In this document: piece by piece, positions 7,467 to 62,498 of the stretch | Layout of the letters: each line of letters opens with the position of its first letter | Position numbering within the stretch: the first letter of the stretch is position 1 | From: Methanocaldococcus villosus KIN24-T80 | Lineage (GTDB): Archaea; AGJL01; Methanococci; Methanococcales; Methanocaldococcaceae | Length of the DNA stretch: 64,000 nucleotides | Direction: 5' to 3' | Assembly (NCBI RefSeq): GCF_000371805.1 | Contig: NZ_AQUK01000001.1 | Coordinates: 1,128,268 to 1,192,267, forward strand | Program-made: the position numbers and the translations under genes | Notes under the pieces: generated by a model | Told to the model about the DNA's origin: nothing | What the model saw: the letters and a program-made list of their open reading frames with translations, nothing else | Database searches by the model: none

Positions 7467-8561
7467 TTAAACTATAAAATCAATATTGCATCTTCTAATT
7501 TCTTTATTGCTGTTACTACTAACAGTTTTTGGAATTATTCTTTTACTTTTTTCTCTACTACCTTTTATATTTGGAGATTTAACACCTGTAATAATAGCCA
7601 TAACCCTTATACAACCCTCCATATCAGGCTCTATTCTTGCTCCCCAAATGACATTTGCATCAGGGTCTAACTCTCTTGTTAAACCTTCTCCAATATCATT
7701 TGCTTCTTTAATAGTTAGATCAGGCCCTCCTGTTATATGAATTAAAGCTCCTTTAGCACCTTTATAATCAACATCTAAAAGTGGACAACTTAATGTCTCT
7801 CTAACTACATTTTGTACTCTATCTCCTCTCTCTGAATTATCCACTTCTCCCACACCAATCATTGCTACTCCTCCGCCAGACATAACAGCCTTTACATCAG
7901 CAAAATCTATATTTATTAATGATGGAACTGCAATAGTTTCTGTTATTCCTTTAACAGCTTGTGCTATTATTTCATCAGCAACTTTAAAAGCATCATTTAT
8001 TGGTAGATTTGGGACAAGCTCTAAAAGTTTATTATTATCTATTATTATAACTGTGTCACAAACTTCTGATAACCTTTCTATACCTTCATCAGCCTTTCTT
8101 AATCTAGCTCTCTCTATCCTAAATGGATATGTTACAACCCCAACAACTATAGCCCCCTGCTCTTTAGCAATTTCTGCAACAACTGGAGCTGATCCAGTCC
8201 CTGTTCCTCCACCCATCCCTGCTGTTACAAAAACCAAATCTGCTCCTTTTAAAAGCTCCTCTATATGATTTTTTGCCATTTCAGCTGCTTTTCTTCCAAC
8301 TTCTGGATAACCCCCAGCACCTAAACCTCTTGTTAATGCAGAACCAATCAATATCTTCTTATGAGCATTTATTACTTCTAAATGCTGCTTATCTGTATTT
8401 ATAGCTATAGTTTCAGCTCCTTGGATACCTATTTCCATTAATCTATTTATTGTGTTATTTCCTGCTCCTCCACATCCAACAACAATAATTCTAGCTTCTC
8501 CAAAATCATCTCTCAATACTTTGGGATCACTTCTTGATAATGCATCTTTTACTAATCTCAT
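7467..8561 (-). CDS. ftsZ: Cell division GTPase FtsZ
   Basis: A 364-residue tubulin-fold GTPase that polymerises into the cytokinetic ring. The nucleotide site is clear: [15 protein letters not shown] near residue 28, the tubulin signature [10 protein letters not shown] near 117, and the T7 region [13 protein letters not shown] near 193. The C-terminal tail ends [16 protein letters not shown] and may carry the membrane-anchor contact. The start is taken at the ATG at 8561 because GTGAT lies four bases upstream; a GTG three codons earlier overlaps that site. Euryarchaea usually have two FtsZ paralogues; which one this is cannot be decided here. Confidence 0.96.
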
Positions 8562-11239: not shown

Positions 11240-12541
11240 ATGTTCATGAGAGAAATAGAACTTAGGGGGCATATTATTGATAGCCTCATTTTACCAAAAG
11301 TTTTAGATAAGATATTAGATATGGGTGGAGATTATAAGATATTGAGGTTTGAAATTGGTAAGAGAAAAACAGATCCTAGTTATGCTAAGATATTAGTTAT
11401 TGCTAAAGATGAAAATCATTTAGATAAAATTTTATGTGAGCTAAAAGATCTTGGTGCTGAAATATCTGAAATAGAAGAAGTAGAATTAAAACCTGCTGAA
11501 AGGGATATGGTTTTACCTGACAATTTTTATTCAACAACAAATCATAAAACTTTTATTAGATTTAAAGGAAAGTGGATTGAAGTAGAAAATCAAAAGATGG
11601 ATGGGGTTATTGTTGTATATCCTGAAGAAATGAGGGCAGAAGTAAAAACAATTAGACAGGTTAAAAAAGGAGATTTGATTGTTGTTGGGCATAAGGGGAT
11701 AAGAGTAATCCCCCCAGAAAAACCTAGAGAAGAGAGTTTATTTGAATTTATGAAATCTGAAGCTTCATCAGAAAAACCAAAAATAACTATAATAAAGAAG
11801 ATAGCCAAAGAAATGTATGAAATTAGAGAGAGATATAGAAAAAGTGGAAAAGGAGGAATAGTGGTTGTTGCTGGACCTGCTGTTATCCACACAGGGGCAA
11901 GAGATGCTTTAGCTAAGTTAATAAAAATGGGTTATGTTCAAGTACTTTTCTCTGGAAATGCATTAGCTACACATGATATAGAGTTTGATTTATTTGGAAC
12001 ATCATTAGGAGTTGATATAAGGACAGGAAAATCTGTTCCAGGAGGACATAGTCATCATTTAAGGGCTATAAATGAGATAATGAAGGCTGGTTCTATTAAA
12101 GAAGCTGTTGAAAAAGGTGTTGTAAAAAGTGGGATAATGTATGAGTGTGTTAAAAACAATGTTCCATATGTTTTAGCAGGCTCTATCAGGGATGATGGAC
12201 CTCTACCAGATGTTATAACAGATGTTGTTGAAGCCCAAAATAAAATGAGGGAGATGTTAAAAGGGAAAGAAATGGTTTTAATGCTTTCAACTATGTTACA
12301 TTCCATAGCTACAGGAAACCTTTTACCATCATGGGTAAAAACTGTTTGTGTTGATATCTCTCCAGCAGTTGTAACAAAATTAATGGATAGAGGTTCTTCT
12401 CAGGCTTTAGGAGTAGTGACAGATGTAGGGATATTTTTGATAAAGTTAGTTGAAGAGCTTGAAAAATTAGAGGGGGAATATGAGGGAGAAGGAGTTGTTA
12501 AGGAAAGGAATAGAGACAATATCAAAGTTAAGGAAAGGTAG
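11240..12541 (+). CDS. Archaeal ornithine cyclodeaminase (TIGR00300 / LOR-SDH family)
   Basis: A 433-residue protein matching the archaeal LOR/SDH-domain family (TIGR00300), members of which convert ornithine to proline and ammonia with NAD. The N-terminal third ([18 protein letters not shown]...) is the small LOR/SDH domain; from about residue 200 a dinucleotide-binding domain follows ([48 protein letters not shown]). It supplies proline where a classic proC route is absent; function is by family. The ATG at 11240 has GGTGAT four bases upstream; an ATG at 11246 is the alternative. The 3' end overlaps the next gene by 62 bases. Confidence 0.82.
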
Positions 12542-26634: not shown

Positions 26635-27207
26635 ATGAAACTCTTTGAAAAACCAGGAAAAGAAAATACAGATGAAACTCTGAAGATATCTGTAGAAAGA
26701 GCAAAGAGAGGAGATATAAAAAGTATAGTTGTAGCTTCATCTAGGGGAGACACTGCTAAAAAACTTTTAGATCTTTTAGAGAAAGAAGGTTTAAAATTGA
26801 ATGTTGTTGTTGTAACCTACCATCAAGGTTTTCATGGGGAAGATATAATTTCTATGCCAAAAGATGTTGAAGAAGAATTGATAAAGAGAGGGGCAAAAGT
26901 TTTTAGAGGGACTCATGCTCTAAGTGGTGTTGAAAGGGGAATATCAAATAAGCTTGGAGGTTACGGGCCTGTTCAAGTGATAGCTGAAACATTAAGAACA
27001 TTTGGTCAGGGAGTGAAAGTTTGTTATGAGATAACAGTTATGGCCTGTGATGCGGGGTTAATAAAATCTAAGGAAGAAGTTATTGCAATTGGGGGAACAA
27101 GTAGGGGAGCTGATACTGCAATGGTAATAAAGCCAGCAAATATGAACAATTTCTTTGATATAGAAGCAAGAGAAATTCTATGTATGCCAAGAGTAAAGAA
27201 ATTATAA
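26635..27207 (+). CDS. Pyruvate kinase C-terminal-domain-like protein (PK_C, COG1751)
   Basis: A 190-residue protein starting [18 protein letters not shown] three bases after GGTGAGATT; an open frame extends upstream but lacks a site and runs into the divergent OBG gene. It matches the family that contains only the alpha/beta C-terminal domain of pyruvate kinase: [17 protein letters not shown] near 37, [13 protein letters not shown] near 64 and a C-terminal [17 protein letters not shown]. Catalytic residues of pyruvate kinase are absent; the role is unknown, perhaps metabolite binding. The terminator of a minus-strand RNA overlaps its stop codon. Confidence 0.8.
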
Positions 27208-27211
27208 AAAA

Positions 27212-27283
27212 GTGTCCCCCAGGTTTAACACCCCTTATCATCCTATAGCAGAGCTAAGTCAAAGGGGCTAACCCACCTGGGGT
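27212..27283 (-). ncRNA. Probable H/ACA guide RNA (pseudouridylation)
   Basis: Read on the minus strand, the 72-base GC-rich segment folds as an archaeal H/ACA RNA. The lower stem CCCCAGGU/ACCUGGGG (275-282 with 217-224) is followed by an internal loop with GGGUUAG on the 5' side and UGUUAA on the 3' side. The upper stem CCCCUU/AAGGGG is topped by a kink-turn-like element (UUGA opposite GAUGA) and a small UAGC/GCUA hairpin. The box ACA is at 27213-27215, one base after the lower stem and 15 bases from the upper stem, as the H/ACA geometry requires. T6 at 27206-27211 would end the transcript. A TATA at 27304-27316 fits a start near 27283. Reading the loop as a guide pocket gives a target of the form ACA-U-N-CUAAC. 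Confidence 0.8.
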
Positions 27284-27303
27284 ATGTTATATATTTTATA
27301 AAA

Positions 27304-27316
27304 CTTTTATAAAATA
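27304..27316 (-). promoter_or_regulatory. TATA box for the H/ACA-like RNA
   Basis: The minus strand reads TATTTTATAAAAG, centred about 27 bases before the start of the lower stem at 27282-27283. The same AT-rich stretch also lies in front of the plus-strand kinase gene, so it may be shared. Confidence 0.5.
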
Positions 27317-55968: not shown

Positions 55969-57251
55969 GAACTCATTATTCTTCTGAATTGTCAGCTAAT
56001 ATGGATGGGGAAATTGTTAAAGTGGCAGGATGGGTTCATTCTATAAGAGCTTTAGGAAAATTGATATTTGTTATCCTTAGAGATAGAGAAGGGTTTATTC
56101 AGATTGTTGTGCCAAAACAGAAAGTTGGAGAAGATTTGTTTAAGAAGATAAAGAGTTTGGGAGTAGAGGATGTTATATCTGTTAAGGGTAAAGTTGTTGC
56201 AAATGAAAAAGCTCCTAACGGTTTCGAAATCCTACCTTTAGAAGTGGATGTGTTAAACACAGCTAAACGACCTCTTCCATTAGATCCTGCAGAAAAAGTT
56301 CCTGCAGAGTTAGATACAAGATTAGAAAATAGGTTTTTAGATTTGAGAAAGCCTAAAATTCAAGCTATATTTAAAATTAGGCATGAAATGTTAAAATCTG
56401 TAAGAAATACATTCTATGAAGAGGGTTTTATAGAAGTTCATACACCAAAACTTGTAGCTTCATGTACAGAAGGAGGTACTGAACTTTTTCCAATATCTTA
56501 TTTTGAAAAAGAAGCTTTTCTAAGCCAAAGTCCTCAGTTGTATAAACAGATGTTAATGGCTACAGGATTAGATAGGGTTTTTGAAATAGCTCCTATATTT
56601 AGAGCAGAAGAGCATAATACAAGAAGACATTTAAATGAGGCAATTTCTATAGATGTTGAAATGGCATTTGCAGATGATGTAGAAGCTATTAAAATGTTAG
56701 AGAAAGTGGTACATAATGCTATAAAAGATGTTTTAAAAAATAGAGAAAAGGAGTTAGAGTTGCTTGGAGTGGAGTTAGAATTACCAAAGAAATTTGATAA
56801 GATAACCTATGATGAAGCTATAGAAATTGCTAAGAAAAAAGGAGTAGAAATAGATTGGGGAGAGGATCTAAGTAGAGAAGCTGAAAAGGCCATTGGAGAA
56901 GAAATGGGTGGATTTTATTTTATAGTTGATTGGCCATCAGATATTAGGCCATTTTATACAATGCCTAAAGATGATAGATATTGTAAAGCTTTTGATTTGA
57001 TGTATAAAGATCTTGAATTAGCTTCAGGAGCTCAAAGAATACATCTTTATGATCTCTTAGTAGAGAATATTAAGAAAAAAGGTTTAAACCCTGATGCATT
57101 TACTTATTATTTAGAGGCATTTAAATATGGGATGCCCCCACATGCAGGTTGGGGGTTAGGGGCGGAGAGATTTACTATGGTTCTGACAGGGAGAGAGAAC
57201 ATAAGAGAGTGTGCCCTCTTTCCAAGAGATAGGCATAGACTAACACCTTAA
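55965..57251 (+). CDS. aspS: Aspartyl-tRNA synthetase (probably non-discriminating, Asp/Asn)
   Basis: A 428-residue archaeal-type class IIb synthetase with an N-terminal OB-fold anticodon domain ([20 protein letters not shown] near 17), then [20 protein letters not shown] near 120, motif 2 in [20 protein letters not shown] near 204 and motif 3 in [20 protein letters not shown] near 398. The residue usually Trp in discriminating archaeal enzymes is His (GWVH), and Pro occupies the usual Lys position in [10 protein letters not shown], the signature I recall for enzymes charging tRNA-Asn as well. That fits methanogens without AsnRS that use the GatCAB route. It overlaps the TPR-like gene by four bases. 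Confidence 0.9.
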
Positions 57252-60668: not shown

Positions 60669-62498
60669 TTGCTAAAAAATATTCCCATAAAGTATAAGCT
60701 TTTAGGCATTGTTTTAGCATTGGTTATAATTAATCTCATTACAGGAGGTTTAGTACTATGTGTAATTGATTGTATGAAAAAAGATGCTGAGATAATGAAT
60801 ATTGCCAGTATGGAAAGAAGTTTAATTAAAGATATGAGTAAATACACAACCATGATAAGTTATGGTGAAGATGTTAAGAATGTTTTAAAAGAAAAATCTG
60901 ACATGTTTGAAAAAAATCTCAATACTTTATTATATGGTGATAAAGAGAGAGGAATTCCAGAAGCTTCTGGTGAATTTAAAGATCAGCTTTTAAAGGTTAA
61001 AAAGTTATGGAAAGAATATAAGGAGAATATTAATGTTGTATTAGAAAGCTCTCCTGGAGATCCAAATTTCTTAGAAGCAGTTAATTACATTCGCAATAAT
61101 TCCAAAGTTTTGTTTAATGAGCAAAATAAAGCTGTTATGATATATCAAAAGAATAGTGAAGAGAAAATAGAACTTGTTAAAACTATAGTTATTATTATGA
61201 TGGTAATAGCTATAATTATTGGAGCACTATCTTACTATGTAGTGAAAGTAGCAATAATAGCCCCAATAATGGATTTAAAAAGAATGTTGATGGAGGTTGT
61301 TAATGGAAATTATGATGTTAAACCAAAGATAAAGTTTGGTAATGATGAGTTAGGAGATTTAGAAAAATGCTTTTTACATATGATTAATAAGATTAAAGAG
61401 TTAATAGAAACTATAGACAGTGATAGAAAAGCTATTAGAAAGACATTTAAGGAGCTTAGAGAAGCTATGGATAGGTTAGCAAAAGGAGATTTAACTGTTA
61501 GATTAGAGGTAAAAGATAAAAGAAGTAAAGCTCAGGAGGCATTTAATAGGGCTGTTGAAAGCATGCAAAATCTTATTAAATCATTAAGACAGGAAATAAT
61601 TAATCTAAATAAAGAGATAAACGCATTAAGAGAAGAGACTCAGAGAGCTAAAGAAACTGCTGAACAGGTTGCAGATGCAGCTAACCAAGTAGCTGTTGCA
61701 GCGACAGATCAATCTAATAAGTTGCAAGATTTAACACAGGAGGTTGAAGAAACAGCTAAGATGGCTGAAGATACACTTAAAGCTGCTGAGGAAGGAGTAG
61801 AAGCGATGGCTGTAGTTGATGAGAAAGCTAATGAAGGGGTTAAGAACGTTGAAAATGCTATTGAGGCTATGCAGAGAATAGCGAATATTATTGATGAGCT
61901 TGGAAAGGCTTTAGAGGAGCTTGGTAAGAAGAGTGAGAAGATAAATGAAATAACAGCTTTAATTAAAGATATCGCTGAACAAACAGGATTATTAGCATTA
62001 AACGCATCTATTGAAGCTGCAAGGGCTGGAGAGGCAGGAAGAGGTTTCGCAGTTGTCGCTAGTGAGATAAAAGGATTAGCTGAAGAGATAGGAAAGTCTG
62101 TTGATGATATAAATAAAACTGTAGAAGAGATAAGATCAGCTATCGAGAAAACTATTGATCTTGGTTTAACTGGAAAAGAGGCTGTTGATAGAGGAGTTAT
62201 TGTTATAGATGAAGTTAATAATGCATTCTTAAAGATAAAAGAGGCTATCGATAAAGCTAATGAAACTATAGTTAGAATTCAAGAGAGTGCTAAGAATTCA
62301 AAAGAGAACGTTGAAACAGCTTTAAGGCATATTCAAGACATCGCTTCCATATCAGAAGAGTTTGCTGCAACTGCTGAAGAGTTAACAGCTTCAGCAGAAG
62401 AGATGAGCAGAATTGTTGAAGAAATTTCAAAAGCTACTGAAGAGATATCAGAGATATCATCAAGAGTTTCTAAAGAAGCTGAAAAGTTTATTATTTAA
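60669..62498 (+). CDS. Methyl-accepting chemotaxis protein
   Basis: A chemoreceptor of about 609 residues. Counting from the upstream ATG at 60657, TM1 is at about 14-34 ([20 protein letters not shown]), an extracytoplasmic four-helix-type domain at 35-175, and TM2 at about 178-198 ([20 protein letters not shown]). A first HAMP follows ([20 protein letters not shown]), then a second HAMP-like unit ([17 protein letters not shown]), and a coiled-coil signalling domain with tip [20 protein letters not shown] and [18 protein letters not shown]. The TTG at 60669 has GGGTGG four bases upstream; the ATG at 60657 is less well placed. No Che or archaellum genes are in the window. Confidence 0.9.

Follow-up and report, generated by a model that had tools for sequence, protein, structure and literature searches.

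A probable stand-alone H/ACA guide RNA gene homologous to HgcG/Pab40 hairpin III in Methanocaldococcus villosus

The minus strand of a 64,000-nucleotide stretch, referred to here as the window, of the genome of Methanocaldococcus villosus KIN24-T80, a thermophilic methanogen, very probably encodes a single-hairpin archaeal H/ACA guide RNA of about 75 nt, a detached hairpin III of HgcG/Pab40, that serves the pseudouridylation of U2022 in 23S rRNA (E. coli position 1915). The initial annotation of the locus as an H/ACA guide RNA is strongly supported by homology, covariation, invariant guide strands, a unique rRNA target and the genes for Cbf5, L7Ae, Nop10 and Gar1. E. coli U1915, in helix 69 of the 23S rRNA, is a known pseudouridine site, and the loop of this helix touches the A-site tRNA and makes an intersubunit bridge. 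A probable guide can now be annotated for this near-universal ribosomal pseudouridine across an archaeal order, at a locus on which Rfam scans of the window are silent. The features of the locus, in window coordinates, are as follows.

27306..27313, minus strand: TATA-like box TTTATAAA of the guide RNA gene (same spacing, match of at least 6/8, in 11/12 genomes)
27209..27285, minus strand: probable H/ACA guide RNA, HgcG/Pab40 hairpin III homolog (covariance model match, homologs, covariation)
27275..27283, minus strand: lower stem, 5' strand ACCCCAGGU; the outermost A stands opposite G, unpaired
27269..27274, minus strand: 5' guide strand GGGUUA, pairing partner UAACCC of 23S helix 69 (invariant in 14 genomes; target scan)
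27262..27268, minus strand: upper (GA) stem, 5' strand GCCCCUU
27259..27261, minus strand: K-turn, 5' strand UGA (GA invariant)
27237..27242, minus strand: K-turn, 3' strand GAUGAU (GAUGA invariant), predicted L7Ae site
27230..27236, minus strand: upper (GA) stem, 3' strand AAGGGGU, its basal G-U pair closing the pocket (G-U in 13/13 distinct sequences)
27225..27229, minus strand: 3' guide strand GUUAA, the first four bases pairing with UAAC immediately 5' of the target U (invariant in 14 genomes; target scan)
27216..27224, minus strand: lower stem, 3' strand ACCUGGGGG
27213..27215, minus strand: box ACA, 14 nt from the pocket-closing base pair (invariant in 14 genomes)
27206..27211, minus strand: T6 run, possible terminator, not conserved among homologs; it shares 27206-27207 with the convergent gene's stop codon

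The minus-strand fold originally described at 27212-27283, with lower stem, pocket, upper stem and K-turn, is confirmed, its extent being 27285-27209. Within it the strands of the lower stem are CCCCAGGU/ACCUGGGG, and the parts follow one another as ACCCCAGGU-GGGUUA-GCCCCUU-UGA-(apical)-GAUGAU-AAGGGGU-GUUAA-ACCUGGGGG-ACA-CUUUUUU. The minimum-energy structure consists of two stems and an internal pocket (-31.3 kcal/mol, z = -2.35, with 5 of 200 shuffles equally stable); this z-score is weak by itself, and it is conservation that proves the element to be real. The lower stem has 8 bp and one A-G mismatch, in line with the 7-9 bp rule for H/ACA RNAs, and encloses with the upper stem a pocket of 6/5 nt, the stems covarying between genomes. 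The K-turn, UGA/GAUGAU, retains invariant GA bases, and the GA stem counts 10 when the basal G-U pair is closed. Box ACA stands 14 nt from the pocket-closing pair, within the expected 14-16 nt, and the bipartite complementarity around a uridine of a stable RNA reaches 10/10 Watson-Crick pairs with 23S helix 69. The element is a canonical H/ACA guide RNA of the archaeal type. Its G+C content of 53% stands out against 29.5% for the window, although the claim that it is the only GC-rich segment other than tRNA does not hold: besides the two tRNAs, further 70-mers of at least 50% G+C occur at 2705-2780, 8134-8249, 11844-11913, 57111-57228 and 61993-62092, and the three of these five that were checked (8134-8249, 57111-57228 and 61993-62092) lie inside long ORFs.

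A DNA search recovered homologs with 75-83% identity: 11 of the 13 remaining Methanocaldococcus genomes have one, as do two genomes from a second genus of Methanococcales. In the resulting first alignment of 14 sequences, the guides GGGUUAGC and GGUGUUAA, the GA bases of the K-turn and box ACA are all invariant; the stems differ in sequence but keep their pairing. Stem positions are paired in 96.5% of cells and double-sided changes affect 12 of the 20 pairs, a result equalled by none of 500 shuffles and abolished when the stem partners are shifted along the alignment. For 34 distinct sequences the figures are 95.2% paired and a covariation of 0.543, against 0.206 when shuffled, in an alignment that favours structure through being fitted to the model and that takes in a few paralogous hairpins. 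A covariance model built from the 14 sequences, that of the window among them, matched the window with 92.9 bits (E 3.7e-23); of the 36 genomes searched in the order, the Methanococcales, 35 yielded a match. For the incomplete genome G003 the top match was to a second H/ACA RNA, related but with different guides, and hairpin III itself was not found there by the covariance model search. The phylum-wide search with this model covered the same 36 genomes; Pyrococcus, Archaeoglobus and Haloferax were compared through Rfam and published papers. A pattern scan of genome contigs returned 19 records, a minority from Methanococcales and the remainder mostly from bacteria, which are taken as chance matches. 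With Rfam, no H/ACA match was found in the window at either gathering or permissive thresholds.

A second H/ACA-like hairpin was also observed at positions 201-275 of locus L079 (G007:C1:986081-986155), in the genome that we take to be M. jannaschii, with relatives at L080-L084 and, in most of them, the guides GGCCCAC (5') and UAGGAUA (3'). A search with model R1 did not find it in the M. villosus genome, and no convincing target for it was identified in its own LSU or SSU rRNA.

The choice of target depends on the register of the pocket. The basal pair of the upper stem is G-U in 13/13 distinct sequences of the first alignment and, with this pair closed, the GA stem of 10, the pocket of 6/5 and box ACA at 14 nt correspond to the published productive class, with a lower stem of 9 including one mismatch; PMC4652768 describes productive archaeal H/ACA RNAs as having a GA stem of about 10 pairs. 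In this register only one stretch of the organism's own LSU rRNA, GGGGUAAC-U-A-UAACCC at U2022, can form 4+6 Watson-Crick pairs without interruption. The runner-up LSU site forms 8 pairs (4 Watson-Crick) and the best SSU match 9 (6 Watson-Crick), and none of 1000 Markov rRNAs reached 10 Watson-Crick pairs. The Methanococcales LSUs scanned preserve the helix 69 site in full, while one LSU from outside the order pairs through 8 Watson-Crick and 2 G-U pairs; two LSU entries rank higher-pairing sites first, at positions that are flanking DNA outside the rRNA gene. When the pocket register is left free, further matches with 10 Watson-Crick pairs appear in 16S rRNA, so the uniqueness of the target depends on the fixed G-U pair and the length of the GA stem, and the assignment is based on the fixed register together with the published homologs. 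The helix 69 sequence is colinear with that of E. coli; numbering from the start annotated for one 2908-nt E. coli 23S gene makes the target U number 1918, which is taken as the conventional 1915 from the helix 69 sequence and the literature. This site is equivalent to H. marismortui 1956 and E. coli 1915 (PMC2584109). According to Toffano-Nioche et al. 2015 (PMC4652768), L2016 is the target of Pab40.3, Ph40.3 and Pf7.3, modification of L1970 can be guided by Af4.3, and the equivalent site L2015 is a predicted target of a related motif in M. jannaschii.

It is conceivable, but rather unlikely, that the same hairpin guides the equivalents of both E. coli 1915 and 1917 in helix 69 by switching the register of its pocket, like its Haloferax homolog. 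The target loop UAACUAUAAC contains both uridines, and hairpin 2 of H. volcanii is reported for L1956 and L1958 (PMC4652768); however, Pab40 and Afu-4 acted in vitro on the 1915 equivalent only (PMC2584109), and by inspection the U1917 register would here disrupt the 5' guide duplex at its first base. Much less credible is a guide for ACA-U-N-CUAAC, the target initially derived by opening the basal G-U pair of the upper stem, which puts it off by one base pair. Steric constraints would permit such opening, and Af4.3 was once proposed to take a comparable open form (PMC4652768), but the pattern occurs neither in the organism's LSU and SSU rRNA nor in the tRNA gene sequences that were fetched, the two best-matching rRNA sites in this register form only 8 pairs, and the GA stem would count 9, outside the productive class (PMC4652768). 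The earlier figure of 15 bases between box ACA and the upper stem likewise applies with the pair open; with the invariant pair closed the distance is 14.

The H/ACA proteins are all encoded in the genome: Cbf5 (538 bits), L7Ae (163 bits), Nop10 (80.9 bits) and Gar1, the last barely above its cut-off (29.5 bits with neighbours, against 29.3). The guide RNA would be transcribed from its own TATA promoter and bound by L7Ae at the K-turn and by Cbf5-Nop10-Gar1 at box ACA and the stems. The pocket could then capture GGGG-UAAC-U-A-UAACCC, allowing Cbf5 to pseudouridylate U2022 (E. coli 1915), which lies in the loop of helix 69.

A promoter and a terminator of its own had both been proposed for the RNA. 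Two TATA-like boxes are in fact present nearby, and it is the one at 27313-27306 that has the conserved spacing: in 11 of 12 genomes, but in 0 of 2000 shuffle sets, a TATA-like 8-mer matching in at least 6 of 8 positions begins within a shared five-base interval ahead of the stem, a test that overstates independence, several of the 12 genomes being closely related. This fixed distance supports a putative promoter belonging to the guide RNA. The T6 run does follow box ACA, but was absent from the homologs examined, and a conserved terminator was consequently dropped. At one relative's locus (L061, G010:C1:680625-680701), hairpin III begins right at the end of the upstream ORF, so the two may be cotranscribed in that species.

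The genes flanking the RNA in M. villosus encode a PK_C-domain protein and a CLP1-type P-loop kinase; the RNA converges on one of these genes and diverges from the other, and neither of them is ham1. In most relatives, by contrast, the RNA lies a few dozen bases upstream of ham1 and in the same direction; the remaining Methanocaldococcus genomes that carry hairpin III, like both second-genus genomes from the DNA search, have ham1 close to the RNA. The RNA 5'-kinase gene noted earlier as a neighbour is a genuine CLP1-type kinase gene, but it adjoins the RNA in no other genome among the loci examined; hence the kinase is not regarded as part of the system, and a functional link between the two was abandoned. 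The usual position ahead of a codirectional ham1 would suit a cis-acting leader or terminator hairpin of the adjacent gene rather than a guide acting in trans. This is nevertheless highly improbable, given the orientation and the lack of ham1 here, guides that are invariant and match rRNA, and the fusion of the hairpin to two further H/ACA hairpins in Methanococcaceae. That it is a GC-rich hairpin formed by chance, as its only moderately unusual folding energy (z = -2.35) might allow, is refuted by conservation and covariation across the archaeal order.

The guide RNA is found in two kinds of gene organisation. In Methanococcaceae, two further H/ACA hairpins precede hairpin III and also covary. 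A dedicated model of hairpins I-II located these in 35 of the 36 genomes; in the Methanococcaceae genomes having both, only 0-6 nt separate their end from hairpin III, except in G028, where the matches to I-II and III overlap (locus L086) and hairpin II is apparently missing. In Methanocaldococcus, hairpins I-II lie between 27 and 1098 kb from hairpin III on the same contig, or on another contig; in M. villosus they occupy C1:1071068-1071211 and hairpin III C1:1155476-1155552, 84 kb apart. These M. villosus hairpins I-II form a separate two-hairpin H/ACA gene outside the window (approximately 1069-1212 of locus L181), with a folding energy of -72.3 kcal/mol over 160 nt and a T run following. 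Rearranged HgcG loci, with hairpin I directly followed by hairpin III and hairpin II apparently lost, were observed in G015 (L073/L085) and G028 (L086), the former also carrying a copy with hairpins I-II-III elsewhere.

The three hairpins are joined in Pf7 of Pyrococcus (PMC2584109) and in the Rfam HgcG consensus, and hairpin III lies near ham1 in joined and split genomes alike, so that fission in Methanocaldococcus is the simplest reading. HgcG/Pab40 has probably undergone such a fission, hairpins I-II splitting off as a gene of their own and hairpin III keeping its place ahead of ham1, from which it moved again, to a new site, in this species. If this is true, H/ACA hairpins behave as independent, portable modules, their target and fold being kept while gene order changes. 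The contrast between hairpin III as a separate gene in Methanocaldococcus and the fused I-II-III of Methanococcaceae is what is new here, a modest twist, and provides a natural test of whether hairpin linkage is needed. No account of the split was found in the openly accessible literature searched, and it may already be known.

Among known guides, the RNA belongs to an established family, of which a published M. jannaschii copy exists. The relatives score up to 63.5 bits (E 3e-15) against RF00064, HgcG (Pab40), below the gathering score of 77 bits, which nothing in the window reaches. The 276-nt RF00064 model calls for three hairpins, which bars an RNA with only one from full membership; in this genome the three hairpins are not united in one RNA, and homology is claimed to hairpin III alone. 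RF00064 misses or under-scores Methanococcales members, partly through its expectation of three linked hairpins, and splitting it by hairpin would recover them. The relatives align on the third and last hairpin of RF00064 with identical guide letters, and the guides of hairpin III and its helix 69 target are both found here. Hairpin III of Pab40/Pf7 (Pab40.3, Pf7.3) shares its fold and guide strands (GGGUUAGC and GGUGUUA in the Rfam consensus) with the M. villosus RNA, as well as its target, Pyrococcus L2016 being E. coli 1915. In Pyrococcus, though, three hairpins are carried in one RNA, whereas hairpin III stands alone here, 84 kb from hairpins I-II. Calling the RNA unannotated is thus correct as regards the Rfam cut-off, but the family and the M. 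jannaschii copy had been published: a motif like Pab40.3 is predicted for L2015, the equivalent of the present site (PMC4652768, Supplementary Fig. S11). From its target and guides we infer that this motif is the same locus as the hairpin III ortholog at C1:216278-216354 of G007. That ortholog lies upstream of ham1, as in most relatives, while the M. villosus gene lies between the PK_C gene and the CLP1-type kinase gene. Hairpin 3 of Archaeoglobus Afu-4 (Af4.3) and Haloferax HP2 share the helix 69 target position by published report, but they sit in multi-hairpin RNAs, and the Haloferax hairpin is reported to guide two sites.
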